DNA from: a bacterium
Lineage (GTDB): Bacteria; Electryoneota; JAOADG01
NCBI GenBank assembly: GCA_026417415.1
Contig: JAOADG010000003.1
Location: 1-17,705 of the forward strand
Reading direction: 5' to 3'
DNA: 17,705 nucleotides
Shown in pieces: positions 685-14,849 of the stretch (position 1 is the first letter of the stretch; each line of letters starts with the position of its first letter). Below the pieces are notes generated by a model that saw only the letters and a list, made by a program, of their open reading frames with translations, was not told the DNA's origin and did not search any database. Both the position numbers and the translations under genes were made by a program.

Positions 685-795
685 TTTGTAACATCCAACC
701 GATACACTTGCTTCGTTCGGTGAGTGAACTCACTGAGCAGATTTTTTAATAACCTTCACAAATCGTTCAAATTTTTCAAACGAATGGAAAGTACT

Positions 796-3627
796 ATGAC
801 TTCATTAAAACGGATTGAACTTGTACAAGGAGTAGCATTGAACGCAATTCGCTGTTTCATTTTTTCAATTTGGATGTTACTAGGGTACACGATTGCACAT
901 TCTGCTGAAATCCGTGGCGTAGTGACGGATGCTAACAACGGCGAGCCCATGATTGGAGTTTCGGTGTTGGTGGAAGAGTTAAAGACCGGTGCAGTTACTG
1001 ATTTAGATGGGAACTACACCATTAAAAATTTACCCGAAGGTACTTATACCTTAAAATTTTCTACTGTGGGTTACGCACCTTCTATCATACGGAACGTGGA
1101 CGCTAAAGGCAATCGTCCTATCCAAATCAATGTACGCCTAAGTGAATCTTCGGTAGAATTCAAAGAGATGGTGGTTGAAGCCAAAGCGGTGGACAACACG
1201 CAAATTGCTATCATTAACATCCAGCGCAATGCTGCGAGTGTTTCTGATGGAATCAGTGCAGAACAGATCAAAAAGTCACCCGACAACGATGCTGGTGATG
1301 CGCTCAAGCGTGTTACCGGTGTCACTTTGGTAGGAGATAAATACGTATTCGTCCGAGGAATGGGCGAACGTTACAACAACACCCGATTAAATGGAATCTC
1401 TATTGCAAGCCCAGAACCACTAAAGCGTATAGTTCCCTTTGACATTATCCCAGCAGGTTTTTTACAAAATGTGATTGTTCACAAGACCTTTACTCCGGAT
1501 TTACCCGGCGATTTTGCTGGAGGTTCTGTTCAACTGAAAACCCAAGAGTTTCCTGAAAAATTGACCTTATCCGGAAGCATCTCAATGGGGTACAACAACA
1601 AAACCACCTTACGAGATTTTTGGTCTTATCAAGGCGGTCACCGTGATTTTTTAGCTACCGATGATGGTACACGTGCTTTGCCACGGTTCGTAAGAGAAAA
1701 TACCGGTGCTGCATACAATTGGATGGCAAATCCTCCGCTTCAAAAGGAGCTGGCAAAATCGTTTTCCAACATCTGGACACCAAGAATTGAAAGCGCGCCC
1801 TTCAATGCTAGTCGTAGTTTTTCCTTTGGTAATCAATCGTGGATAGGTACGATACCTATTGGTTATCTGTTATCGGTTAGCCAAAGCCAGAGTTATTCCA
1901 ACAAAAAAGAAAATTTACAAATGTACACGGTTGCAGGGAACAATATACAAAAATTCGCTGATTACCAAGTATCTCGTTCTACTGCCAGTTATGGTTTAGG
2001 AGGGGTGCTCGATCTTAATATCAAACCCTCACAAAACTATAAAATGGGCTTCAAATCCTTTTTTAGCCGATCCGCAGATGATGAAACCCGACTTTATCAA
2101 GGGTTAGGAAAAGAAGATATCCATTATCGTGGATACCGATTGCAATGGACCGAACGCACCTTACAATCCAATCAGATTTTAGGGACCTTGGAAACTCCAG
2201 CATGGTTGAACATCCGTACAGATTACTCAGTATCGGTCTCTAAAGCCATCTATTCGCAACCGGACCGCAGAGACATCTTGTACCGCATCTATGAGCCCGA
2301 CACTGTTTGGTATTTGCTGACTACCTCAGAGAGCCCATTCCGTAGGTTTGCACGGATGGATGATGATGTCAAAGAAGGGACAGTGAATTTTAGTATCCCG
2401 CTGGAATGGATTGGTAAGACCTCTAAGATTAAGACCGGGGTTGCTTATCGTACGATGAAACGTAAATTTGAAACCCGAAAATTTTATATCAATCCGGTTC
2501 GTGATCCGGGCGACCCCTATTTGGATTTTTCACTACCTACTGAACAAATTTTGCTTCCTAAAAATATAGACGATCAATTTGAACTGCGTGAGGTCACCAC
2601 CTCGCTTGATCCTTACGATGCGAAAATGAATGTGACTGCAGGTTACCTGATGGGGGATCTGCTTTTTGGTCCATTTTGGAGAGTAGTCGGAGGGGTACGT
2701 TTAGAAAAGACAGTACAAACCTTCCAAACCTATGCGGTCACTTCTGTGACCAGTGGTACCGAAAGTGGTGGTCCCATCCATACAGATATTTTACCATCTT
2801 TGAGCATCACCTACAAACTCAATACGGATATGAATTTGCGTCTTTCTGGGAGCAGGACCATTGCCAATCCGGATTATGCAGAAATTGTACCTACCGAGGA
2901 CTCAGATTATTACGAAGGTGAGACCAAATCAGGGAATCCCAAGATTAAACATACCAAAATCACCAATGCGGACCTACGTTGGGAGTGGTATCCACGGATT
3001 GGTGAAAACTTCGCTTTGGGTGTGTATTACAAATATATTCAGGATCCCATTGAAATGGTCAAACAAGCCAGTGGTGCAACGGAACGTGCTAAACCCGAAA
3101 ATTTGGTTGATGCAAGAAACATCGGTTTTGAATTGGAATTCAGAAAATCATTGGATCAATTGTCCCCTTGGGTGGGCAATTGGATCAAACCCTTGTCGTT
3201 CAGTGGGAACTACTCTTACACCCTTTCCCAGATTGAGTTTGATGGACTGCCTTATGATGCGAACAATGCTTCAAATACGACCATCTTGACTTCTAAAAAA
3301 CGACCGATGACCGGTCAGTCCCCTTATGCTATCAACGGAACCTTGGCTTATGAACCGATAGAATGGGGAACCAGCATTCGTCTCCTTTATCACGTGTTTG
3401 GAAGACGCATTGTGCAAGTAGGTGCTTACGGAATGGCAGATGCATACGAAGAGCCGTTCCACAAGTTGGACTTTTATGTTGATCAAAAGTTAGGGAAAAA
3501 TTGGACGGTAAAACTTTCTGGGACCAACCTCCTTGATCGTCCTGTCCGATATACCTTAAACGGAATTACTTATCACCACTATCGCACTGGCCGTTCAATC
3601 AGTGCGGGCATTTCTTATTCTTTGTAA
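796..3627 (+). CDS. TonB-dependent outer-membrane receptor with CarboxypepD-regulatory N-terminal domain
   Basis: This is a 943-residue outer-membrane beta-barrel transporter. The signal peptide ends near IAHSA (about residue 36). A carboxypeptidase-regulatory-like (transthyretin-fold) domain follows at about 37-115 ([20 protein letters not shown]...DLDGNYTI). The plug domain contains [20 protein letters not shown] and [16 protein letters not shown], then SPEPLKR and [11 protein letters not shown], typical of one widespread TBDT subfamily. A long barrel ends in ISYSL. There is no STN domain, so it is probably not a FecA-type signal transducer. The frame is open from GTG 724, and ATG 784 is also possible. 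I prefer ATG 796 because GGAAAG lies 5 bases upstream and the signal peptide is then compact. The barrel ends in Leu rather than the usual Phe. The substrate cannot be read from the sequence. It leads a run of three genes for exported proteins. Confidence 0.9.
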
Positions 3628-3644
3628 ACTTGAATTCACTTATT

Positions 3645-3649
3645 GGAGG
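3645..3649 (+). promoter_or_regulatory. Shine-Dalgarno fixing the start at 3657
   Basis: GGAGG lies 7 bases before ATG 3657. The frame is open upstream to a TTG at 3630, but that would put nine extra residues before a textbook signal peptide, so the ribosome site decides for 3657. Confidence 0.8.
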
Positions 3650-3656
3650 ATCATTT

Positions 3657-4367
3657 ATGAAAAACCTATTCTTATTGGCGATTTTGATTTTAGCACTCGC
3701 GTGGGTAGCGTTTGCTCAATCAACATCAGCCCCGTCAAAATCAGTCGGTGCAGTGAATCGTACCCTTCCTACTGGATGGTCGTTGGTTGCTTTGCCAATG
3801 GTTCCATCCAGCACCACCATCCAGACCGTCTTTGCAGATACCAACGGTCTGGGCAACCAGTTGAGCGGCGGAACCTCTGCAGGTACCTCGGATCAAGTAT
3901 GGAACGAAAGTGGTTCCTTTGCTTGGTATTACAGCGGTACACCGGGTAGCGGATGGTATGGCAGTTTAACGCAAGTGACTCCCGACGAAGGGTATTGGAT
4001 TCTTAACCGCACCGCTCCCAAGACCATCAAACTGTTGGGAGAAGTTTCAACAGTAGCACGTCAACAGACGGTTACAGGAAACAACACTTGGAATCTGGTA
4101 GGGGTTACCTTCCCGAAAAACTTTGCTTTAAGCGATGCAACCAATGGCCTTATCGCATCTGGTTTCAGTGGTGGATTAACCTCTGGAACGTCTAGCCAGA
4201 TTTGGAATGATGCCGGCCAATTTGCTTGGCTTTATGATGATGGTCCCGGCGGTGCTCCCACGACTTGGGCAGGATCGCTTACCACCCTTGAGTATGGTAA
4301 GGCCTATTACATTTTGAACCGTGGTTCCACTTTCATTTGGACCATTAACCCGCCAACCAGTTATTAA
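3657..4367 (+). CDS. Secreted protein with two tandem ~90-residue beta repeats
   Basis: The gene encodes 236 residues and begins with a clear signal peptide (MKNLFLLAILILALAWVAFA, then Q). The mature protein is two copies of one domain, at about residues 39-127 and 143-232. Each runs from a WxLVxV/LP strand, through GG.[ST]xGTSxQ[VI]WN and FAW.Y, to W.GSLT and a GYWILNR/AYYILNR strand. This resembles the all-beta W-L-V...Y-W-I modules common in large secreted FCB proteins, but I cannot name a Pfam family. It starts 29 bases after the TonB receptor stop and ends 10 bases before the next start, so it is probably co-transcribed with the receptor. There is no lipobox and no T9SS C-terminal domain, so it may be periplasmic, or surface-exposed by association with its neighbours. 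Function unknown. Confidence 0.82.
   Translation: MKNLFLLAILILALAWVAFAQSTSAPSKSVGAVNRTLPTGWSLVALPMVPSSTTIQTVFADTNGLGNQLSGGTSAGTSDQVWNESGSFAWYYSGTPGSGWYGSLTQVTPDEGYWILNRTAPKTIKLLGEVSTVARQQTVTGNNTWNLVGVTFPKNFALSDATNGLIASGFSGGLTSGTSSQIWNDAGQFAWLYDDGPGGAPTTWAGSLTTLEYGKAYYILNRGSTFIWTINPPTSY
3771..4352 (+). repeat. Internal duplication encoding two ~90-residue domains
   Basis: Bases 3771-4037 and 4083-4352 encode the two homologous domains of the gene at 3657-4367. The clearest matching blocks are SGGTSAGTSDQVWN against SGGLTSGTSSQIWN, and GYWILNR against AYYILNR. The DNA copies have diverged, so this is an old duplication. Confidence 0.8.
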
Positions 4368-4372
4368 GGAGG
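4366..4372 (+). promoter_or_regulatory. Shine-Dalgarno fixing the start at 4378
   Basis: AAGGAGG overlaps the stop codon of the preceding gene and sits 5 bases before ATG 4378. An adjacent in-frame ATG at 4375 would have only 2 bases of spacing. A longer in-frame start at 4321 (GTG) lies inside the upstream gene and is not needed. Confidence 0.8.
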
Positions 4373-4377
4373 TCATG

Positions 4378-5103
4378 ATGAAAACCAAGTTTCTGTTTCT
4401 TTCACTTTTGTTGGTACTGGTGGGTGTATCTCTGGCACAACCGCCGGTAAACATAACCTATGGCAACGAAACTTTAGCACCAGCCACCAATGAAAATGGT
4501 GCCATTTTACCTAACGGCTCATTGATCTACGTAATCAATTGTGGTCCTGACATGACCATTAATCCCCCTGAATTAAGCGGTCCAAACAAAGGACTCCCCA
4601 CGGGAGATGATTTTATTATACGAACCACCTACATAGGCGATAATTTGCCCCCTGTACCGGGTTTTGAAGGCAAATTTGTAAGTTCGGGTCAGGTCTTTTT
4701 CCAACCCACACAAGGACAAACGGGAGTTGGACACAATCTTTACATACGCTTTTTTAATACCAACGATCGCAATACTGCAACTTATTATGGCAACTCTACC
4801 ACGTACACCACCACTTCTATCAATGGACAAGCCATGGAACGTACCGGCCAGACCAATATTCCCTTAGCATTACCCATGCCGAGTGTAGTAAGCGGTTTAA
4901 CCATTACACGTACTGGAGATGGTACCGTGACCTTGAGTTGGAACCCTTCCAACCATGCAACGGGGTATAACATTTATCGGACGTCCAACATTTTATCATG
5001 GCCGACAACCCCTTATTCATCCAGTACGACTACTACCTGGACGGATCCTCAATCCACGCAGGGAACCAATTTTATGTACTATAGAGTGACTGCAACCAAC
5101 TAA
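4378..5103 (+). CDS. Secreted protein: uncharacterised ~100-residue domain plus fibronectin type III
   Basis: The gene encodes 241 residues, starting with a signal peptide (MKTKFLFLSLLLVLVGVSLA, then Q). Residues about 47-148 form a domain I do not recognise, with GPDMTINPPE, LPTGDDFI, PPVPGFEGKF, TGVGHNLYIRFFN and NTATYYGNS. The same domain is the N-terminal half of the protein at 8081-8854. Residues about 166-241 look like a fibronectin type III domain (VTLSWNPSNHATGYNIYR ... YYRVTATN). It lacks a T9SS tail, unlike its paralogue. It lies between two other exported-protein genes (10 bases after one, 30 before the next) in the receptor-led run. It may be a binding or adaptor protein in the periplasm or at the surface; no catalytic motif is visible. 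Confidence 0.82.
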   Translation: MKTKFLFLSLLLVLVGVSLAQPPVNITYGNETLAPATNENGAILPNGSLIYVINCGPDMTINPPELSGPNKGLPTGDDFIIRTTYIGDNLPPVPGFEGKFVSSGQVFFQPTQGQTGVGHNLYIRFFNTNDRNTATYYGNSTTYTTTSINGQAMERTGQTNIPLALPMPSVVSGLTITRTGDGTVTLSWNPSNHATGYNIYRTSNILSWPTTPYSSSTTTTWTDPQSTQGTNFMYYRVTATN

Positions 5104-5121
5104 GGATTGTTAAACATACTT

Positions 5122-5128
5122 GAAGGAG
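5122..5128 (+). promoter_or_regulatory. Shine-Dalgarno fixing the start at 5134
   Basis: GAAGGAG ends 5 bases before ATG 5134. An in-frame TTG at 5107 would add nine residues ahead of the signal peptide and has no comparable site. Confidence 0.78.
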
Positions 5129-5133
5129 TAAAA

Positions 5134-7335
5134 ATGAAACTAAGTAATTTTACAACATTGTTCGTTTTGGGAGCGTTGGTGATGCTGATTGCTATCGGCG
5201 CCTTTGCCCAAACGGGAGTCCCGCAAAACGTGACCATTACTAAAATGGGGAATGCGGGTTATCGTTTGAATTGGAATCCCGTTGCTGGTGCGACCAGTTA
5301 TTATATCTATCGTGACAATGCTCCAATTACCAACGTGGGTGGAATGATCCCAATTGATGAAGTGACCACCAACTCTTATTTTGACAACTATACCGCACCT
5401 GCTTTTTATGCTGTGGTTTCGGTTTTCCCAGCCGGTACTTTAAGTGGGACCGTATTTATGCCCAACGGAACTACCCCGCTGGACTGTGTGTTGGTGTATA
5501 TTAACGATTCAAAATTTACCTATACGCTTGCTGGGACGGGTTCCTATACCATTACCAATATCCCCGTAGGAACCTATACGGTGAAATTCTATCGTGTTTT
5601 ATATGCAGTGGGGACGGTAGCGAATGTGACCATTTCTGCAGGTCAAGTGACCACCCTAAATTATACTATGAATCAACCTCCTTTTACTGTAGTCAGTGGG
5701 ACATTACCAACTGGAACTACCAACTGGGTGAATACCAATATCTATCAATTGAGTGGGATGGTGCAAGTGCCCAATGGTGGGATTTTGAACATCCAAGAAG
5801 GGACCACAATCGTAGGAAGTTATCCCAGTTTAGCGTTTTTGGTAGTTTCGCAAGGTGGACGCATCTATTCCGTTGGTACCAAGTACATGCCCGTAGTTTG
5901 GACTTCAAACCGAAGTGTATCCACACGAAATGCGGGTGACTGGGGTGGAATCATCATCAACGGGTATGCTCAAAACAACCGTGGGATTGTACCCAATGGT
6001 GAAGGAAACTCTGGTCAATATGGTTCTACCGATACGTTAAGCAACAATGACAACAGTGGAATTATTCGTTACAACCGCATTGAATTTGCCGGTTATCGTT
6101 TTACCCCAACCAACGAATTGAACGGTTTAGCACTACAATCGGTTGGGCGTGGTACTGAAATTCGTTACGTTCAAATCACTCAAGGGTTGGATGATGCCAT
6201 TGAATTTTTTGGTGGGAGTGTAGATTGCGATCATATCGTGGCTACCGATGGTGGTGATGATGGATTTGATTGGACCGAAGGTTGGAATGGAAAAGCACAC
6301 CATGTATTAATTAGACAACGTGCAGCCGACTCGGATTGTGGTATTGAAGCAGATAACTTAGAACAAAATCATTCTGCCACCCCCTATGCACATCCCAATC
6401 TATCAAACTTTACCATTATTGGGAAAAAAGATTTAGCCAATCATCGTACAGGAACTAACCCGGGAATGAATCTTCGTCGTGGTACCGGCTTTAACCTCTT
6501 TAACTTTATCGTAACTCGTTCACGTGGGGGCGGGATTGACATTGACGACTCTGTCACTTGTTGGCGTGCCTCTTCTGCGATTGGTGTGTTAAACGGGTCC
6601 TCACGAATTGATTATTCAATTTTCTGGGATAATGCCCAGGGTGCGGCTGCCGAAGGGATTGATCCCACTACAGGCCCAGGTATTGGAGACGGTCACTTCT
6701 GGGTTGAAACCAATGAATGGCCGCCATCCAATCGTTTTCGTATCAATTCTCTTCATTTGGCTGCTCCCGTGGGTTGGACCCAAAATCTTCCCAGCAGCAA
6801 TTTTGCCGGTAGTGGGTTCATTGGTTCAAATGCCACCAATGCAGTGGTGGATCCATTGATTCCAACTTCGGCAACTACAGGTAATCCTGAAGTGAATGCA
6901 TTTTTTGATGCCCGTCCACCTGCCAACTCTCCAGCAGTGAACGGTGCCGTTACACCAGCACCAGCAGGTGTGTTAGCGCAATATGGTTTGCCTTATGCCA
7001 ACTATATTGGTGCTTTTAATGGTCCGAATGATGATTGGCATGTCGGTTGGACAGGATATATCTCTGCAGTTCCACCACCGCCATTCTATACCATCACCGG
7101 TTTTGTTAGGAATGCTGCAAATCAAGGAATACCGGGTGTAACCATCGCGTCAGATATTACCGATCCTGCTACTACAGGTCCAGATGGTTCCTATACCATT
7201 TATGTTACCCACGGCACTACGGTAACTTTAACTCCACAGCCAGTACCCGGCTATTCGTCCTTTACACCACCAAGCCGTACCCATACCAATGTGACGGGGA
7301 ACTTGTCAAACCAAAACTTTGTAGCCAATCCATAA
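5134..7335 (+). CDS. Large secreted beta-helix protein with FN3 and CarboxypepD-like domains
   Basis: The gene encodes 733 residues. The signal peptide ends near AIGAFA (about residue 25). A fibronectin type III domain follows (about 28-98: YRLNWNPVAGATSYYIYR), then a carboxypeptidase-regulatory-like domain (about 102-180: GSYTITNIPVGTYTVKFYR). The long middle part is rich in Gly, Asp and Asn (about 185-640) and looks like a right-handed beta-helix, with GDWGGIIINGYA, GEGNSGQYG, GLDDAIEFFGG, DDGFDWTEGW and GIEADN. This middle part resembles a family often encoded beside TonB receptors with the [12 protein letters not shown] plug, as here. A last beta-sandwich (about 650-733, YTITGFVRNAANQGIPGV) ends the protein. 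There is no lipobox and no T9SS tail. The Asp-rich loops could bind metal, but no catalytic site is recognisable. It is probably a surface or periplasmic partner of the receptor at 796-3627. Confidence 0.85.
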   Translation: MKLSNFTTLFVLGALVMLIAIGAFAQTGVPQNVTITKMGNAGYRLNWNPVAGATSYYIYRDNAPITNVGGMIPIDEVTTNSYFDNYTAPAFYAVVSVFPAGTLSGTVFMPNGTTPLDCVLVYINDSKFTYTLAGTGSYTITNIPVGTYTVKFYRVLYAVGTVANVTISAGQVTTLNYTMNQPPFTVVSGTLPTGTTNWVNTNIYQLSGMVQVPNGGILNIQEGTTIVGSYPSLAFLVVSQGGRIYSVGTKYMPVVWTSNRSVSTRNAGDWGGIIINGYAQNNRGIVPNGEGNSGQYGSTDTLSNNDNSGIIRYNRIEFAGYRFTPTNELNGLALQSVGRGTEIRYVQITQGLDDAIEFFGGSVDCDHIVATDGGDDGFDWTEGWNGKAHHVLIRQRAADSDCGIEADNLEQNHSATPYAHPNLSNFTIIGKKDLANHRTGTNPGMNLRRGTGFNLFNFIVTRSRGGGIDIDDSVTCWRASSAIGVLNGSSRIDYSIFWDNAQGAAAEGIDPTTGPGIGDGHFWVETNEWPPSNRFRINSLHLAAPVGWTQNLPSSNFAGSGFIGSNATNAVVDPLIPTSATTGNPEVNAFFDARPPANSPAVNGAVTPAPAGVLAQYGLPYANYIGAFNGPNDDWHVGWTGYISAVPPPPFYTITGFVRNAANQGIPGVTIASDITDPATTGPDGSYTIYVTHGTTVTLTPQPVPGYSSFTPPSRTHTNVTGNLSNQNFVANP

Positions 7336-7351
7336 TGAAAACTCAATCCCA

Positions 7352-7373
7352 AGGGGGCACTTCGGTGCCCCCT
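7352..7373 (+). terminator. Strong UUCG hairpin after the receptor gene run
   Basis: AGGGGGCAC (7352-7360), loop TTCG, GTGCCCCCT (7365-7373): a perfect 9-bp GC-rich stem with a C(UUCG)G tetraloop, 16 bases after the stop of the beta-helix gene. No T-tract follows (TAAAGGGAG). It could be a terminator, or a 3'-end stabiliser that partly separates the upstream genes from the lipoprotein gene at 7422. Confidence 0.65.
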
Positions 7374-7421
7374 AAAGGGAGTGATAGGAAGAGAATGAGT
7401 CAAATGAAACAGGATGGGTAG

Positions 7422-7907
7422 ATGAAAAAATACTTTACCGTTTTGATTCTCTTTTGGATGACTGCTTGTACCCCACACAAGACGCTGTATCAACATTCTT
7501 TTCAAACCCCAGAACGATTAGGTGAGACAATCCTTAAGGCGATCAGCGAAAACGATTCTTCACGATTAGCAAAAGTATTGATGACCGAAACCGAATACAA
7601 ACAGATTTTCTACAAATCTTTACCAGATTCAATTCAACAAGCCATGCCAGTGGATTTGGCGTGGGGGTTTGTAGAACAAGATTCACGAAAAGCCATCAGA
7701 CGATATTTGGCAGATTATGGAGGACAACACATTCGTTTGCAAAAAGTGTTTTTTCGCTTTGAACCTCATCGCTATGAAAACTTAGTGGTTCATCGGGGGA
7801 TGGTTATGGAAGTGCTACTCCCTAACGGTGAAACCGAAAGTTGGAGATTGGTCAATGTGGTGGTAGAACAAAACGGATATTTCAAGGTTGTTGCCTTTAA
7901 CGATTAA
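7422..7907 (+). CDS. Small lipoprotein of unknown function
   Basis: The gene encodes 161 residues. The N-terminus MKKYFTVLILFWMTAC is a type II signal sequence, with the lipid-carrying cysteine at residue 16. The mature part begins with helices (LGETILKAISENDSSRLAKVLM) and ends in beta strands (LVNVVVEQNGYFKVVAFND). This alpha-then-beta layout resembles NTF2-like lipoproteins, but I see no diagnostic motif and make no functional claim. A site AGGATGG lies 4 bases before ATG 7422. It is 86 bases after the beta-helix gene, with the UUCG hairpin between, so expression may be reduced relative to the upstream genes. About 170 bases with their own promoter candidate separate it from the next gene. 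Confidence 0.75.
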   Translation: MKKYFTVLILFWMTACTPHKTLYQHSFQTPERLGETILKAISENDSSRLAKVLMTETEYKQIFYKSLPDSIQQAMPVDLAWGFVEQDSRKAIRRYLADYGGQHIRLQKVFFRFEPHRYENLVVHRGMVMEVLLPNGETESWRLVNVVVEQNGYFKVVAFND

Positions 7908-7993
7908 ATGAGCATTCAATTTTTTATCCTAAACGAGCGGGTTTACTTGGCGATCATGGAAGGGGTGTAGGGGATAAACTTCTTAACCGATTA

Positions 7994-8023
7994 CTAACAA
8001 ATCATTTACGAATTTTTTATACT
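7994..8023 (+). promoter_or_regulatory. Putative promoter for the T9SS protein / pseudo-peptidase pair
   Basis: CTAACA (7994-7999) and TATACT (8018-8023) have an 18-base spacer; TAACAA one base later would give 17. The expected start near 8030 leaves a leader of about 50 bases with AAGAGGA (8068-8074) ahead of ATG 8081. The candidate is moderate because the surroundings are AT-rich. Confidence 0.4.
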
Positions 8024-8080
8024 TTTTTAATAATCACATTTTAACTTATATACGCATTACAAATTTTAAGAGGAAAAAGA

Positions 8081-8854
8081 ATGAAACATTTGCTTACGCT
8101 GATTGCATTATTGTTCATACTGACTGCGTCCTATGCACAACCGCCAACTCCAATTCTTTTTACTACGGATACTGCTTGGACCTCGGCTTCTGGTGCGCCT
8201 TTGCCGTTTGGTTGTTGGATACAAATCATCTGTGCAGGTCCCGATACCACCATTCAACCACCCGATTTTGATTTAAATTTTAGCGCTCCTACAGGCGATG
8301 ATTTTATAGTGACTACCGATACCATCGGTGCGGGTTGCCCGCCTATTCCGCCATTTTATGGCATTTTCAACATTGGAAGCATGGTTTATGCCAACCCAAC
8401 GGGCAACCAATTAGGGATTGGTTACCGTGTGTATGCACGAGTATGGAATGCTGCTCATCCTGCCAACGCAACCTTCTACTACGATTCAAGATTGCATCAA
8501 ACCACAGGAGGTGGTGAAACTGCGAATCTGTTGCAGCGACATTCTTATACAGTTTCGGTAGAGGAAAGCGAAAGAAGCAACACAATTAAGACCTTTGAAA
8601 TGAAGCCGATGTTTCCCAATCCAACCAATTCTGCTACAACCATTCGCTATTCTTTGCCGACAGCAAGCACTGTAGAGCTGGTGGTGTATGATGTTCAAGG
8701 TAGATTGGTTCACTCTGTTTTTCTCGGAAAACAAAATGCAGAACAACACTTGTACCATTGGAATATGAGTCAACTCGCTTCAGGTACCTATTTCGTACGG
8801 CTTCGCGTAAACAACGTAGAAGCAGGAATGCAACGCATCACCTTAATCCGTTAG
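8081..8854 (+). CDS. Secreted protein with T9SS C-terminal sorting domain, paralogue of 4378-5103
   Basis: The gene encodes 257 residues with a signal peptide (MKHLLTLIALLFILTASYAQ). Residues about 45-145 are homologous to the unnamed domain of the protein at 4378-5103: GPDTTIQPPDF, PTGDDFI, PPIPPFYGIF, LGIGYRVYARVWN and NATFYYDS line up in the same order. Residues about 177-257 are a type A T9SS sorting domain (FPNPTNSATTIRYSLP, VVYDVQGRLV, LASGTYFVRL, ending in ITLIR). The protein should therefore cross the outer membrane by type IX secretion and have its tail removed or anchored. Its paralogue keeps the domain but carries FN3 instead of this tail. The gene is followed 10 bases later by the clostripain-like lipoprotein, so the two are probably co-expressed. 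Biochemical role unknown. Confidence 0.85.
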   Translation: MKHLLTLIALLFILTASYAQPPTPILFTTDTAWTSASGAPLPFGCWIQIICAGPDTTIQPPDFDLNFSAPTGDDFIVTTDTIGAGCPPIPPFYGIFNIGSMVYANPTGNQLGIGYRVYARVWNAAHPANATFYYDSRLHQTTGGGETANLLQRHSYTVSVEESERSNTIKTFEMKPMFPNPTNSATTIRYSLPTASTVELVVYDVQGRLVHSVFLGKQNAEQHLYHWNMSQLASGTYFVRLRVNNVEAGMQRITLIR

Positions 8855-8864
8855 AAAGGCAAAT

Positions 8865-10505
8865 ATGAACAAGAAATACTTTCTTTTCATTCTACTCCTA
8901 TTGTTATTGATGGGATGGACTTCTTGTACTTATGAACGCAATACTACGGTTTCCAATGTACAAGAAATATCTCAAGGAGCACAATGGACCTTGATGTACT
9001 ACGGTCCCGGGGATAATGAATTGGACACGTTTGGACCAGAACAATCTTATACCCAATTTAATGTAGCTCAATTGGAACAAGTATCCAGTACTGACTTGGT
9101 GAATGTGGTAGCACTTACAAAATCAAGGATAGATAATTCTCCCCATGCGAAATATCAACGCATTACCTTTCATCCGGGCAATGGCATTCAATCTGAGACA
9201 ACAGAATGGCAGAATACCAATTTATCTGATCCTGCCACCTTATTGAGATTTATCCAAGAAACAGCTCAAAGATATCCTGCACAATACTATGCAATGGTGG
9301 TAACGGGTGGCGGAAGCGGTTGGCGAGGAGTATGTGAAGAAGAAAATACTCAGATGTTTATCCGTCAATTTGGAAATGCATTTATCCAATCAGGCGTCCG
9401 CTTTGAAGTGGTGGCGTTACTGGTGCCAGAGACCGGGATGATAGAAGTAGGTTATGAATTGCACGAAGCGGTCAATTATTTAATCGTCCCCTCCTATAGA
9501 AGCAGTCCTGCACCTTATTTTAGCGGACGAAGATGGTTTCAAGATTTGGTAAGTCAACCTTATTCAAATGGTGAACGGATCGGAAAATTGATGGTGGATG
9601 CATTCCATCAAGCAGCGATGGAACGAAGAGACACCACTCTATTTGTGATGGTACAACTTTCTAATCTTTCTATGTTAGGCAATGAAATCAATCAGTTGGC
9701 AGAGCATTTGCAAGGGATTGTACCCACGAGTTCACAAGAACTGTTTGCCCTAAGAAGAGCATGTTGGCAACGTCAGTTTGACGATTCTTCCAATGTTGAT
9801 ATACTTAAGTTTATCAAGAATCTACTCCGCAACAACAATCTTCTTCAACAAGATTCTGAAATTGAGACACATTGCCGAAACATCGTCAATCTTTTGCTAC
9901 AAACCAATGTATATCAAAGGCCCAACAGTTTGGATCGGTTTGCCATTACCCCTTCTTATTACGATCCGGATCGTGGTGGTATTTCTGTCTATTTTCCTGC
10001 TATTGCAGGACCAGTGCTGGAACTACCGGTTTATACCACCACCCGCTTTGCATCCGAGCAAAACAACTGGCCCAATTTCGTCAACTATTTTAACACCTAT
10101 GAATTGATGAATGGGATTGTGGTGACAGGAACAGTAAAACTTATTCAACGTCCGTTAGGTGGAAATACTTTCCAACCGTTGTATCTTTTTATTGATACCA
10201 CCACCCAACAACGTCCGCAACCTTTCCATACCATCCGTTTACCGATTCAGGTATCGGACTTGCGGCAACTTGCAGATACCACCTATGCGGACTTCACTGC
10301 GCGGTTTACTTTGGATCCAAGTGTTACCAGTGTGCGAGCACGGTTGTTTGTGTTTCAGGATATGGATCGCAATGAACTCTTTAATGGTGGTGACCGCTAT
10401 GGTTTCCATTATAGCCAAAGCCGATTCCGTCCAGATACTTTGCGAATAGCGCCGGGTGACAGCATACGCAACACCCGATACGTGTTATCTTGGACCTATC
10501 AATAA
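8865..10505 (+). CDS. Clostripain-like (peptidase C11 fold) lipoprotein lacking catalytic His and Cys
   Basis: The gene encodes 546 residues. The N-terminus ends in TSC, with a likely lipid-carrying Cys20 (Trp at -3 is unusual). WTLMYYGPGDNELD (40-53) is the opening strand of peptidase C11/clostripain domains, and AMVVTGGGSGWRG (142-154) and TGMIEVGYEL (189-198) match the two catalytic loops. In active members these read roughly WNHGSGW and DACLMG.IEVAYEL. Here the His position is Gly148 and the Cys position is about Pro187, so both dyad residues are missing and the protein is presumably a non-hydrolytic relative. The reading frame is intact and the fold motifs are well kept, which argues against random decay. 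The last ~125 residues look like a beta-sandwich (FVFQDMDRNELFNGGDRYG). It lies 10 bases after the T9SS-tailed gene and ends at the shared terminator. Confidence 0.8.
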   Translation: MNKKYFLFILLLLLLMGWTSCTYERNTTVSNVQEISQGAQWTLMYYGPGDNELDTFGPEQSYTQFNVAQLEQVSSTDLVNVVALTKSRIDNSPHAKYQRITFHPGNGIQSETTEWQNTNLSDPATLLRFIQETAQRYPAQYYAMVVTGGGSGWRGVCEEENTQMFIRQFGNAFIQSGVRFEVVALLVPETGMIEVGYELHEAVNYLIVPSYRSSPAPYFSGRRWFQDLVSQPYSNGERIGKLMVDAFHQAAMERRDTTLFVMVQLSNLSMLGNEINQLAEHLQGIVPTSSQELFALRRACWQRQFDDSSNVDILKFIKNLLRNNNLLQQDSEIETHCRNIVNLLLQTNVYQRPNSLDRFAITPSYYDPDRGGISVYFPAIAGPVLELPVYTTTRFASEQNNWPNFVNYFNTYELMNGIVVTGTVKLIQRPLGGNTFQPLYLFIDTTTQQRPQPFHTIRLPIQVSDLRQLADTTYADFTARFTLDPSVTSVRARLFVFQDMDRNELFNGGDRYGFHYSQSRFRPDTLRIAPGDSIRNTRYVLSWTYQ

Positions 10506-10524: not shown

Positions 10525-10560
10525 AAAAAGTAGCATCCAAACGGGTGCTACTTTTTTTTT
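10525..10560. terminator. Bidirectional intrinsic terminator between convergent units
   Basis: Arms 10525-10538 and 10543-10556 form a 14-bp stem (one G-T wobble) with loop AAAC. A run of nine T follows on the plus strand (10552-10560), and AAAAA precedes it, giving a T-run on the minus strand. It sits 19 bases after the stop at 10505 and overlaps the sixA stop codon, so it can end both transcripts. Confidence 0.88.
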
Positions 10561-11071
10561 ACTTTTTACGGGATTGAGCAATTCGTTGAAATTGTTCTGC
10601 GGTGAGGGACCACAACAACCTAGCACAAACTCCAAAATGGAGTTCATCGGTGAATTCAAGTGCAAACATTCCACCTTTGCGATGGCTTAAGCGTTCTGAA
10701 GTGGTCCCAATAAGGATGGCAACGGTCTCAGCCATTAGGGGCGCATGTCCAACTAAAAGCAACTCATTTGCATCCAAATGCTTGTCAATGAGGTACTCAA
10801 TCAAGTGTTTCGGATTGCTGGAAGGGGATAAGGTTTTCGTAATCTTGGGTTTCAGTGTATAGGGGAGTTGCAATTCTTGAAAAGTTTCTTTTGCACGGAC
10901 AAGTGGGCTTGTTAAAACTCGATCAAATTGCAATTCCATTAAAGTACAAGCCACACCGATCTGTTTCGCAGTTTTACGACCTTTGCGGGTTAGCGGGCGT
11001 AGTTCATCTTGTACAATCCCATTGACTCCTAAAGGTTCTGCTTGAGTATGTCTTAGAAAATACATTCGCAT
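10559..11071 (-). CDS. sixA: SixA-type phosphohistidine phosphatase
   Basis: This 170-residue, single-domain member of the histidine phosphatase (phosphoglycerate mutase-like) superfamily has the short SixA layout. The N-terminus MRMYFLRHTQAEP carries the catalytic RH (His8; Thr replaces the more usual Gly). RPLTRKGRKTA and VLTSPLVRAKET carry the family arginines, and LLLVGHAPLMAE carries the second histidine. SixA removes phosphate from phosphohistidine, in E. coli on nitrogen-PTS proteins or hybrid kinases, and acts in the cytoplasm. ATG 11071 directly follows the CHAD stop codon (11074-11072), with GAGG about 9 bases upstream. It is the last gene of the five-gene operon and ends in the terminator. 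Pairing of SixA with CHAD and Ppx recurs in bacteria, but its target here is unknown. Confidence 0.88.
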   Translation of the reverse strand: MRMYFLRHTQAEPLGVNGIVQDELRPLTRKGRKTAKQIGVACTLMELQFDRVLTSPLVRAKETFQELQLPYTLKPKITKTLSPSSNPKHLIEYLIDKHLDANELLLVGHAPLMAETVAILIGTTSERLSHRKGGMFALEFTDELHFGVCARLLWSLTAEQFQRIAQSRKK

Positions 11072-11881
11072 TTATGAGACCTCACCTTGAATGATTTGCT
11101 TAGGGGACAACTGAAGCAACCCTTTTTTGATGGATGGCAACTGTTGCAAAAGCGGTAGTTGTTGCTGGCGATAATGTTGTATGGGACGTTGTAAGTGGCG
11201 CGATTGTTTTCCGTAACGTTTTTGACGCCAATTCAAAAGAAACTCAATCAATACATCCAAATCATGGATATCCCCTAACAGCGTTTGGTAATGATGTAAC
11301 AGATCAAACGAAGCATTTCGTGAGAGTTCCATTAAATCAAAATACGATTCCATTTGGTAGCGATATTTTTTCAAAGCGATACGCAATTGATGGATACTTT
11401 CGGGATCGTTGAGTTGAAGTTTTCGTACATATGTCTTTACTACCTGAAAAGACGATTGAACGCAACGATCAATGGATGCTGTTTCTAAAGCCAAATTTGG
11501 GTGTTGGGAAAGTTTTTCAAAAAGTGACCGATGTTTTTTTAAGATTTGGCGAAGTGAGTTTTTTTGAAAAAATTTGCGTAGTTTGGACTTTTGTCGTTGT
11601 ATCTTTTGTTCAAGATCGTGATGGACTTCACTTAAACTTCGGTAACTTTCAACATCATTGGAAATTCGCAACTCCATCACCTGTAAGTCACGTAAGTCAG
11701 AAAATTGTTTAAATACTTGTTTCAAAGGTGATGTCAACTTGCCTTCAAACCATTGAGGATAGGCCTGTTGTAGCAATTGCAAAGAAAACAACAATCGCCG
11801 AAGGGCAACACGAATATCATGAATGGCAGGTTCACTTAGTTTTTGAGTACAGCGTTTCCATTCTTTACGAACGGTTTTCAT
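11072..11881 (-). CDS. CHAD-domain protein (polyphosphate-associated helical domain)
   Basis: The protein has 269 residues from ATG 11881, all alpha-helical and very basic. It carries the two hallmark CHAD repeats: IHDIRVALRRL (about residues 21-31) and IHQLRIALKKYRYQME (about 164-179), each with the conserved His and Arg/Lys face. CHAD proteins bind inorganic polyphosphate and can localise to polyphosphate granules, which fits the Ppx/GppA gene in the same operon. No CYTH domain is fused to it. The true start is doubtful. The same frame is open back to the stop of the preceding gene (TAA 11953-11951), the extra residues look like a CHAD first helix, and a perfect AAGGAGG sits at 11952-11946. 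Yet no ATG, GTG or TTG lies in that interval in frame; ATC 11938 has ideal spacing. ATG 11881 has no usable ribosome site. Confidence 0.85.
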   Translation of the reverse strand: MKTVRKEWKRCTQKLSEPAIHDIRVALRRLLFSLQLLQQAYPQWFEGKLTSPLKQVFKQFSDLRDLQVMELRISNDVESYRSLSEVHHDLEQKIQRQKSKLRKFFQKNSLRQILKKHRSLFEKLSQHPNLALETASIDRCVQSSFQVVKTYVRKLQLNDPESIHQLRIALKKYRYQMESYFDLMELSRNASFDLLHHYQTLLGDIHDLDVLIEFLLNWRQKRYGKQSRHLQRPIQHYRQQQLPLLQQLPSIKKGLLQLSPKQIIQGEVS

Positions 11882-11945
11882 CCGCCGTTTTAAGGTAAGA
11901 ACATAGTTGGTAACCGATTGATGCGTGCTTGTTTGGATTACTTGA

Positions 11946-11952
11946 CCTCCTT
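11946..11952 (-). promoter_or_regulatory. Perfect Shine-Dalgarno without a standard start codon behind it
   Basis: AAGGAGG on the minus strand overlaps the stop of the gene at 11951-12658. In the CHAD frame the next codons are GGT, CAA, GTA, ATC, CAA. ATC at 11938-11936 has a 7-base spacing. The nearest in-frame ATG is 57 bases further on, at 11881. The only other ATG in reach is out of frame and meets a stop after three codons. Confidence 0.6.
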
Positions 11953-12658
11953 AGGAATCACTTAAAAAAGCATTCAATTTCCCTTTAATTTCTTGGTTGA
12001 TTTCCATAATAGAGCGGTTACCGTCAATGATAAAAAAGTTGTACCGTTGATGCAACTGTTGGAAGACACGAAGCAATTTTTTTTGATACCGTAAAAAGCA
12101 TTTGTACATACTATCCGGAAAGAACAGATCCATACCCGATTCCCAATAATCCAGCCGACCGTTTTTCTTAAAATTGCGGAGCGCTAAATTTTCAGGAGAA
12201 ACACGCAAGTAAAACACAGCATCCGGTACCAAAGCGAAGCCATACAAATCGGTCACCCACTCTTCAGGGACACCGCGTACGATGTCTCGTGCCATCAGCG
12301 TGTAGATGTAACGATCCGCCAAAACGATAAAGCCGGCACGTAATGCAGGGATGATTTTATGCTCCAATTGATCACAGAAATCTGTGGCATAAAACAAGCC
12401 CATAGTGATTGGTCCTAAGGTATTGCCGGACATTGCGGTCTCTAACTCTTGGCTGACCAAATCCGAACGTTTAAGACCCACCACCACTGTGGGCAAGCCG
12501 TTCTTTTCAAACCAATCGGCTAATAATGAAATTTGAGTGGAGCGTCCGGAACCGTCCGAACCTTCAATAACGATCAACTTTCCGTTTAGTTGATCGGATT
12601 GGACTTGAGGTAATCCTTTTCCAAAAAAACGCTTTCCACTTGTTTTCCTTTTACCCAT
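11951..12658 (-). CDS. Thymidylate-kinase-fold protein with Arg in the Walker A motif
   Basis: The protein has 235 residues with a basic 25-residue N-terminal extension before the first strand. The P-loop reads GSDGSGRST (33-41), so the Walker A lysine is Arg39. ADRYIYTLMARDIVRG (114-129) corresponds to the DR[YH]xxS segment of dTMP kinases, but the AYQ that helps bind thymidylate is missing. The lid region has YWESGMDL (171-178), shared in form with its neighbour. Over the central 68 residues it matches the product of 12586-13335 at about 37 positions (hand count). ATG 12658 has GAGG a few bases upstream and lies 73 bases inside the upstream gene; the only other in-frame start before the P-loop is a poor TTG. 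It may be a kinase acting on another phosphate acceptor, or a regulatory subunit of its paralogue. The housekeeping dTMP kinase role looks unlikely. Confidence 0.78.
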   Translation of the reverse strand: MGKRKTSGKRFFGKGLPQVQSDQLNGKLIVIEGSDGSGRSTQISLLADWFEKNGLPTVVVGLKRSDLVSQELETAMSGNTLGPITMGLFYATDFCDQLEHKIIPALRAGFIVLADRYIYTLMARDIVRGVPEEWVTDLYGFALVPDAVFYLRVSPENLALRNFKKNGRLDYWESGMDLFFPDSMYKCFLRYQKKLLRVFQQLHQRYNFFIIDGNRSIMEINQEIKGKLNAFLSDS

Positions 12659-13335
12659 TTATACCTCGATAAATCTACTTTTTCTTGAATAATTTTGCGA
12701 ATTTCGGTCTGTTGAACGATGGGCGAACGCGTCGCATCAATGCGAATGAAATGGTATTCTTTGGATAATAACGAATACTCTTTCTGAATTCTGGCTTGAA
12801 ACAAACGAAACGATTCATACGGGTCGGGCGATAACCCTAAATCCATACCGGCTTCATAAAATTTAAGTTGGGGGCGACCATCCAAAATACGGGACAGCGC
12901 CACTTCCAAAGGGACATCAAAATAAAAAGTCAAATCAGGCAATTTGGCAAATTTGTAAACCTTGCGGATCCATTCGCGATCAATCCCGCGTACCACATCT
13001 CGTGCAAATGCTGTAAAGATATAGCGATCCGCCAAAACGATGAAACCTGCTTGGAGCAAAGGAAGAATCTGATTCTCATAACGGTCAGCTAAATCCGTCG
13101 CATGGATTAATGCAAACGTACTCGGGGTAAGCAGTTGTTTTTTCTTTCCGCGTCTTGTTGCACTTTTCACCAAAGGGGACGAATTCCATTCCGTAAAAAA
13201 GACCCGATAACCATTTAACTCCAACCACCGTTTAACCAGATAAATTTGTGTGGATTTTCCTGAGCCATCTAACCCTTCTACCGCGATTAGAATTCCGCTT
13301 TGTTCTTCTTGTTCGGTTGCTGATGAAAAACTCAA
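12586..13335 (-). CDS. Divergent thymidylate-kinase-like P-loop kinase
   Basis: The protein has 249 residues. Walker A is intact: GLDGSGKST at 21-29. LADRYIFTAFARDVVRG (101-117) carries the DRY motif of the dTMP kinase family, but lacks the AYQ residues of true thymidylate kinases. The lid has FYEAGMDLG (159-167) in place of the usual DRIE-type segment. The fold belongs to the same P-loop group as the PPK2 polyphosphate kinases, but no PPK2 signature is present. It starts at TTG 13335, which overlaps the ppx stop (TTGA) and has GGAGG at 13344-13340; no other start lies ahead of the P-loop. The C-terminus has about 20 residues after the last conserved helix that overlap the next gene. The context suggests a role tied to polyphosphate or nucleotide-phosphate balance rather than routine dTTP synthesis. 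Confidence 0.8.
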   Translation of the reverse strand: MSFSSATEQEEQSGILIAVEGLDGSGKSTQIYLVKRWLELNGYRVFFTEWNSSPLVKSATRRGKKKQLLTPSTFALIHATDLADRYENQILPLLQAGFIVLADRYIFTAFARDVVRGIDREWIRKVYKFAKLPDLTFYFDVPLEVALSRILDGRPQLKFYEAGMDLGLSPDPYESFRLFQARIQKEYSLLSKEYHFIRIDATRSPIVQQTEIRKIIQEKVDLSRYKWVKGKQVESVFLEKDYLKSNPIN

Positions 13336-14849
13336 AAGACCTCCTTTTTCTGTACAATCACTGGAATAGAAAACACTTGTTCAAATAAGGTGGATTTTTT
13401 CTTGACCGCCCATTGTTCTAACAGCAAATCATCTTCACCTTCAATGGTTAAATAAAGCCCATTTTTTTTCAGTTCAACAGTCAAGTGATGGACTTTGGAT
13501 TCATGCTCACGGTCTAAGGCATCGGCTATTCGCAGCAAACTGCATAACTGAATGACTGCGTCTCTATCGTGAGCAAGCAGTTCCCGATAACTTTCATGGG
13601 AAAGTGAAGGGGATGATTTTCGGTGATAGCGTGCGATGTTCCCGATGATTTTACGTTCGTATTCCGATAAACTTACCATTGGAATGGCTTCAATGATGTA
13701 TTGGGAATGTTTATGATGGGAGCTGGAATGGATAAAATGGCCAATATCATGTAAAATGGAAGCCACTTCTAAATAGAGGCGATAAGGTTCACTAAGACGA
13801 TGGAGCGGAGCAGTATGATCAAATAATTGTTTAGCAAAGTGTGCCACTTGTTTGATATGCTTTTCGTCAGCGTTAAAGCGCTTCGCTATTTGAAGTGCTT
13901 GCCGACATACCAAATCGTGTTTATTTTCTACTAAAGCGGGAAAGTGATGGTGATTGAGTTCTAACAAAATGCCATCACGTAATCCTGTGCGGGGAATGAG
14001 GATCTCTTTTGCACGTGTCAATTCCAATAAAATTTGCATTACAATAGCCGCGGGGACAATCACGTCGGCACGATCTGGCCGAAGTTGAAAACGTGAGATC
14101 CGCTCGCTTGGGGTTGAGCGTTGCAATTGCTCCACCATTATCCCCAGTTCATCTTTGAGCAAACGGTCGGTAGAATTTTTTTTGAAAAGGACAGCACGTA
14201 AATCGGCAAGAGCTTCATTGCTACCCCCAGTGCCGATGAACAATTCTATTTTTTTATGCCCAATCTCTTTGCGAACCCATCGTCGGACTACCGTGGTATA
14301 TTCTTTGACCAATTGGTAAAAATTTGTCTCACCATACTTTGGCTCTTCTAAAACTTTAAGCAAACGTACTGCCCCTAAACGAAAACTGTCTGCTGCAACA
14401 ATTTTTCCTTTACTAGAAAGAATTACTTCTACACTACCCCCACCAATATCCACAATCATGGAGTTTAGTTTAGAAAGTGGTATCTTGTGAGATACTGCCA
14501 AATGAATTAGCCGTGCCTCTTCTAATTCGTCAATTCGTTCTAAGCGGATCCCTGTTTGTTTGAACAGGTTGTCGCAAATTTCCTCTCCGTTGTTGGATTC
14601 ACGAAGTGCAGAAGTGGCTACTGCACGATAAGGGGGGTGTTCATACTTTTCCAAAATAGTCCGAAACTGTTGGAAAACAGCAATCAATTGTTTTTCGGTC
14701 TCTGGTGTAATCAGACCATATTCAAAAGCATCAGATCCTAAACGCAAGGGGACTCTCAAGGTCTCCACGATTTGCAGACGACCACGTGCTTCCGCTTTTG
14801 CAACCGCAAGTCGGATAGCATTAGAACCGGTGTCAATCGCTGCAATCAT
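13332..14849 (-). CDS. ppx: Ppx/GppA family exopolyphosphatase / pppGpp phosphatase with HD domain
   Basis: The protein has 505 residues. The N-terminal actin-fold half has the phosphate-1 loop AAIDTGSNAIRL (3-14), the EEAR segment (110-113) with the conserved glutamate, the phosphate-2 loop IVDIGGGSVEV (132-142) and GTGGSNEAL (206-214). The C-terminal half is an HD-type helical domain: ILHDIGHF (365-372), histidines near 378-381, and LRIADALDREH (439-449). This two-part layout is the usual long Ppx/GppA form. These enzymes release phosphate from the ends of polyphosphate chains and/or convert pppGpp to ppGpp; the sequence alone does not decide which. It is first in the five-gene minus-strand operon and overlaps the next gene by 4 bases. 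No ribosome site precedes ATG 14849, and a promoter-like element ends only 3 bases before it. Confidence 0.9.
   Translation of the reverse strand: MIAAIDTGSNAIRLAVAKAEARGRLQIVETLRVPLRLGSDAFEYGLITPETEKQLIAVFQQFRTILEKYEHPPYRAVATSALRESNNGEEICDNLFKQTGIRLERIDELEEARLIHLAVSHKIPLSKLNSMIVDIGGGSVEVILSSKGKIVAADSFRLGAVRLLKVLEEPKYGETNFYQLVKEYTTVVRRWVRKEIGHKKIELFIGTGGSNEALADLRAVLFKKNSTDRLLKDELGIMVEQLQRSTPSERISRFQLRPDRADVIVPAAIVMQILLELTRAKEILIPRTGLRDGILLELNHHHFPALVENKHDLVCRQALQIAKRFNADEKHIKQVAHFAKQLFDHTAPLHRLSEPYRLYLEVASILHDIGHFIHSSSHHKHSQYIIEAIPMVSLSEYERKIIGNIARYHRKSSPSLSHESYRELLAHDRDAVIQLCSLLRIADALDREHESKVHHLTVELKKNGLYLTIEGEDDLLLEQWAVKKKSTLFEQVFSIPVIVQKKEVF

Follow-up and report, generated by a model that had tools for sequence, protein, structure and literature searches.

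The window analyzed here, an entire contig of 17.7 kb, carries a compact five-gene operon that probably encodes a polyphosphate cycle, in which two paralogous kinases of the thymidylate kinase (TMK) fold, KinA and KinB, would together act as a polyphosphate kinase (KinAB) that replaces PPK1, with KinA as the catalytic subunit and KinB as its partner. The genes ppx/gppA, kinA, kinB, CHAD and sixA lie head to tail on the minus strand from 14849 to 10559, as the original prediction for this DNA had stated, and the overlaps, the abutment and the common terminator that it described are all correct on the coordinates. The first gene, ppx/gppA (13332–14849), encodes 505 aa. kinA (12586–13335) starts with TTG at 13335 and overlaps the ppx stop in TTGA, while kinB (11951–12658) overlaps kinA by 73 nt. 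The CHAD gene (11072–11938, 288 aa) probably starts at a rare ATC codon at 11938, 12 nt from the kinB stop and 7 nt after a perfect AAGGAGG. An alternative ATG at 11881 would give a protein of 269 aa; the ATC start is favored because the 19 extra residues equal the length of the N-terminus in the relative from G001, the other member of the host family. Finally, sixA (10559–11071, 170 aa) abuts the CHAD gene, and the operon ends at a strong palindromic terminator (10525–10556, a 14-pair stem with T/A tails). The terminator is shared with a convergent plus-strand gene at 8865–10505, which encodes a clostripain-like (PF03415) protein of lipoprotein type.

The host genome (2.2 Mb) is rated 100% complete. 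A mis-binned contig was ruled out, as the tetranucleotide profile of the window fits the main host contig (r = 0.92) and the sister genome G001 has the same operon, in the order sixA-CHAD-kinB-kinA-ppx. That order, together with the adjacency of kinA and kinB in 80/80 distant loci and the near-invariant sequence features of the two kinases described below (replacement of AYQ and an E[AS]GMD lid), argues that the arrangement is not due to chance. The plus strand from 724 to 8854 encodes a TonB-dependent receptor and, after it, secreted proteins, of which one (8081–8854) ends in a Por secretion tail of the type typical of FCB-group bacteria. A promoter scan of the window returned sites no more frequently than in shuffled sequence, and no Rfam families or tRNAs were found in the 17.7 kb.

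Each of the family assignments is backed by Pfam or NCBIfam profiles. The ppx/gppA product matches PF02541 (1.4e-39), PF21447 (1.4e-26, domain III) and an HD profile (4.8e-8); its C-terminal domain III is of the HD type. Its match to the exopolyphosphatase model TIGR03706 (2.2e-63) lies under the family cut-off, and the protein is likely an exopolyphosphatase. The CHAD protein matches PF05235 (1.4e-29) and is predicted to bind polyphosphate; CHAD domains bind this polymer and are frequent in polyphosphate gene clusters (PMC6537752). The last protein matches PF00300 (7.7e-9) and has the active-site motifs LRHT and VGHA. Since it scores 69.7 bits (2.4e-19) against TIGR00249, where the equivalog cut-off is 74.5 bits, and its phosphohistidine motif reads RHT, not RHG, we refer to it as SixA-like.

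The kinase pair is widespread. A scan of one genome per species across 84,980 species yielded no fewer than 557 relatives. The 80 best matches come from more than 10 phyla and include Acidobacteria, Verrucomicrobia, Chloroflexi, Geobacter-type deltaproteobacteria, Sumerlaeota, Latescibacterota, Zixibacteria, Omnitrophota, KSB1, Neomarinimicrobiota, Ignavibacteria and others. In all of these best 80 loci kinB directly follows kinA on the same strand, and in 40 of them ppx, CHAD or sixA lies near the pair, with many of the loci ending at contig edges. Two more distant genomes of the host phylum have the order sixA-kinA-kinB-ppx. In several loci a two-domain PPK2 gene adjoins kinAB, and within the class of the Geobacteraceae member PPK2 lies at most 5 kb from the pair in 5 of the 15 kinAB genomes, a proximity with a chance probability of ∼1e-8. 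The genes do travel together across phyla, in agreement with the linkage to polyphosphate that had been proposed, and this association is a direct observation.

The replacement of PPK1 is also observed directly. Profile searches find neither PPK1 (PF02503) nor PPK2 (PF03976) in the host genome or in G001, though both genomes retain ppx, CHAD and kinAB. In the class of the Geobacteraceae member (226 genomes), PPK1 is present in 0/15 genomes with kinAB vs 136/211 of the others (Fisher 4.7e-7). When only the PPK2-carrying genomes of this class are considered, the separation sharpens to 0/14 with kinAB vs 126/132 without (Fisher 3e-15); both values ignore shared ancestry, and many of the genomes counted are incomplete metagenome-assembled genomes. 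Because genomes with kinAB and genomes with PPK1 are interleaved along the taxonomic listing of the class, several switches between the two are suggested. In the host phylum the counts point the same way (0/4 kinAB genomes vs 5/35 others) but are too few for significance in the Fisher test. Among 50 kinAB genomes drawn from many phyla, 15 have PPK1. It is present in 12 of the 19 that belong to Verrucomicrobia and in 3 of the remaining 31, including one Ignavibacteria and one Acidobacteria genome. The exclusion is strong outside the Verrucomicrobia and absent within them; a strict exclusion everywhere is ruled out, since 12/19 Verrucomicrobia carry both.

Where the original prediction had the kinase pair make, use or sense polyphosphate, these data narrow the choice to making it as the most likely role. 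The opposite direction would have KinAB mainly consume polyphosphate, rephosphorylating NDPs for ATP regeneration, with the main synthase being another enzyme. Many PPK2 enzymes prefer polyphosphate-driven rephosphorylation of NDPs. In addition, KinAB and PPK2 fall in one group of P-loop folds (PMC8776046). However, it is PPK1 and not PPK2 that the pair replaces, as PPK2 is present alongside kinAB in 14 of the 15 genomes of the class that carry the pair, and under a consuming role the host would be left with no recognizable source of polyphosphate. We therefore regard consumption as an unlikely main function, and synthesis by KinAB as the better reading of the distribution.

The sequences of the kinases themselves bear on whether they still act on nucleotides. 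Both match PF02223 (KinA 7e-24, KinB 1.7e-20), and both score just above the equivalog cut-off of the dTMP kinase model TIGR00041 (94.8 and 84.5 bits vs 83.25), so that automated annotation is expected to name them dTMP kinase. AlphaFold models of KinA (pLDDT 89.4) and KinB (pLDDT 90.4) have the TMK fold. For both, the best structural matches are to Sulfolobus tokodaii ST1543 (Z 27.6–28.2 for KinA and 26.9–27.4 for KinB), ordinary TMKs are next (Z 22–28 overall), and no PPK2 structure appears among the best 50 matches listed. Neither protein matches the PF03976 profile, which rules out membership in PPK2. KinA and KinB share fold and family with the canonical TMKs, but they differ in their signature motifs and form a separate clade. 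We aligned 83 KinA and 79 KinB sequences with 17 canonical TMKs. All 17 canonical enzymes share the REPG loop, an Arg downstream of it and the YQ pair, and these residues are replaced in the 83 KinA and 79 KinB sequences. The Walker-A Lys is kept in 83/83 KinA homologues, while Arg occupies this position in 79/79 KinB homologues. KinA has in addition invariant WNS and HxTD motifs and has gained an invariant Lys within a basic GKK[KR] stretch. KinA of the window shows an intact Walker A (GLDGSGKST), a TEWNSS loop, an RRGKKK basic stretch, ADRYxxTAFARD and an EAGMD lid; KinB shows GSDGSGRST, with Arg for the Walker-A Lys, a GLKRS loop and an ESGMD lid. The loss of AYQ after DRY, noted earlier in both kinases of the window, proves near invariant across the homologues. 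Of the shared GMDL lid described with it, the GMD core is conserved, as E[AS]GMD, and the L varies. The description of the two proteins as altered TMK relatives holds as well, although it had overlooked the change from Lys to Arg in KinB.

The possibility that both proteins are genuine nucleotide kinases, for dTMP or another NMP, that lie beside polyphosphate genes by chance is favored by the PF02223 and TIGR00041 calls and by the TMKs among their nearest structures. Nevertheless, a canonical tmk is located elsewhere in the host genome (C38:195999-196562, 6.2e-41, DRYRLSTEIYQG), so that KinA and KinB are not its sole TMK candidates, and one is found in 33/35 other kinAB genomes. The separate tmk, whose absence would have spoken for a housekeeping role, and the replaced signature residues rule out the pair as the housekeeping dTMP kinase, as had been predicted from the altered specificity residues. 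With the invariant Arg of KinB, the linkage to polyphosphate genes and the anticorrelation with PPK1 also to be accounted for, any nucleotide kinase role seems very improbable, and the database name "dTMP kinase" is probably wrong for the pair. Also very improbable is that KinAB is a sensor of polyphosphate or of the phosphate state, or that it produces a small phosphate-containing signal for which SixA and Ppx/GppA would be the phosphatases: relatives of SixA and GppA do act in signaling, and PhoB/PhoR-, PhoU- and Pst-like genes, recognized by sequence reading, lie near some Verrucomicrobia loci, but the replacement of PPK1 and the CHAD and PPK2 neighbors would be left unexplained.

A polyphosphate kinase of this kind was probably first recognized in archaea. 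In the tree, KinA and KinB are sister clades separate from the canonical TMKs, and ST1543 falls within the KinA clade (support 0.77 for KinA with ST1543 and 0.98 for KinB). KinA matches the ST1543 structure (PDB 2plr) at 1.4e-63 with 50% identity. ST1543, annotated as a dTMP kinase (PDB 2plr, 4nzy, 4rzx, 5h70), resembles KinA in its EWNSS, KKK, ARD and EAGxD motifs and in fold (Z ∼28). It differs in being a single archaeal protein, and the titles listed for its entries name ADP and no TMP complex. The crenarchaeal polyphosphate kinase of Hofmann and co-workers is reportedly TMK-like. Polyphosphate accumulates in Sulfolobales, which lack PPK homologues (PMC7831078), and a conserved Sulfolobales cluster of SixA, PPX, dTMP kinase and CHAD is given in the legend to Fig. 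2 of PMC10892726. A distinct crenarchaeal family of polyphosphate kinases, the archaeal "family 3", with the synthesizing enzyme characterized in S. acidocaldarius, is attributed to Hofmann et al. (bioRxiv 2024, 10.1101/2024.08.28.610084; JBC 2026, 302:111283) by the papers that cite it (PMC11677633, PMC13318637). The module is well supported as polyphosphate-linked by the separate tmk, the specificity residues, the linkage with ppx, CHAD, sixA and PPK2 and the absence of PPK1, but it can no longer be called wholly undescribed, as the original prediction had it. The window operon shares the Sulfolobales gene set and the affinity of KinA to ST1543, but it belongs to a bacterium and encodes two paralogues side by side, one invariantly with Lys and the other with Arg, and the pair extends over more than 10 bacterial phyla. 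Judged against the crenarchaeal family as its citing papers present it, the new points are how widely the pair occurs in bacteria, its invariant combination of Lys and Arg, and the displacement of PPK1.

From these observations we infer that polyphosphate is synthesized, that the two kinases form a heteromer and in which direction the reaction runs in vivo. KinAB would be a third kind of polyphosphate kinase. We propose, from the conserved motifs, that KinA is the catalytic subunit, a TMK-fold protein that would no longer fit dTMP and would carry the working P-loop, and that KinB, with Arg always in place of the P-loop Lys, is a noncatalytic or modified partner. Together they would extend a polyphosphate chain at its end with the γ-phosphate of an NTP, in a reaction that would be reversible, as it is for other PPKs. 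KinB may act within a heterodimer or higher complex, in a role comparable to that of the inactive domain in class II PPK2. The PPK2 enzymes have a common ancestry with thymidylate kinases, and in those of class II one domain is active and the other inactive (PMC8776046). The likeness to PPK2, above all to the class II polyP:AMP phosphotransferases, lies in the TMK-related P-loop kinase and in this pairing, whereas KinA and KinB have no PF03976 match, are encoded by separate genes and are of TMK-type sequence. With PPK1, in whose place KinAB stands in genomes lacking it, the apparent functional role is shared, but PPK1 has an unrelated fold and a phosphohistidine mechanism (PMC8776046) and is missing from the host. 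The CHAD protein would bind the polymer, Ppx would remove phosphate at chain ends, and the SixA-like phosphatase may have an accessory role.

A more specific form of this proposal, about as likely as not, is that bacterial polyphosphate can be made by an obligate two-subunit polymerase of the TMK fold, in which KinA is catalytic and KinB is an Arg P-loop pseudokinase that shapes the chain channel or primer site, and that this enzyme has repeatedly displaced PPK1 while hidden under the name dTMP kinase. If so, many bacteria seemingly unable to make polyphosphate could do so, surveys of polyphosphate metabolism based on PPK1 and PPK2 would overlook an entire family of enzymes, and the "dTMP kinase" label, which is very widespread, would be wrong for genes of the kinAB type. 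It would also offer a clean case in which a nucleotide kinase fold became a polymer-making enzyme through gene duplication and one active-site change.

Sugar kinases of the ROK family, which includes the polyphosphate-dependent glucokinases, are repeatedly found next to kinAB (4 of the 84 neighbors scanned, for example, L035:7806-8810). One genome in the class of the Geobacteraceae member (G238) has two complete kinA-kinB pairs, at C1:2969581-2970952 and C1:3067582-3068941.
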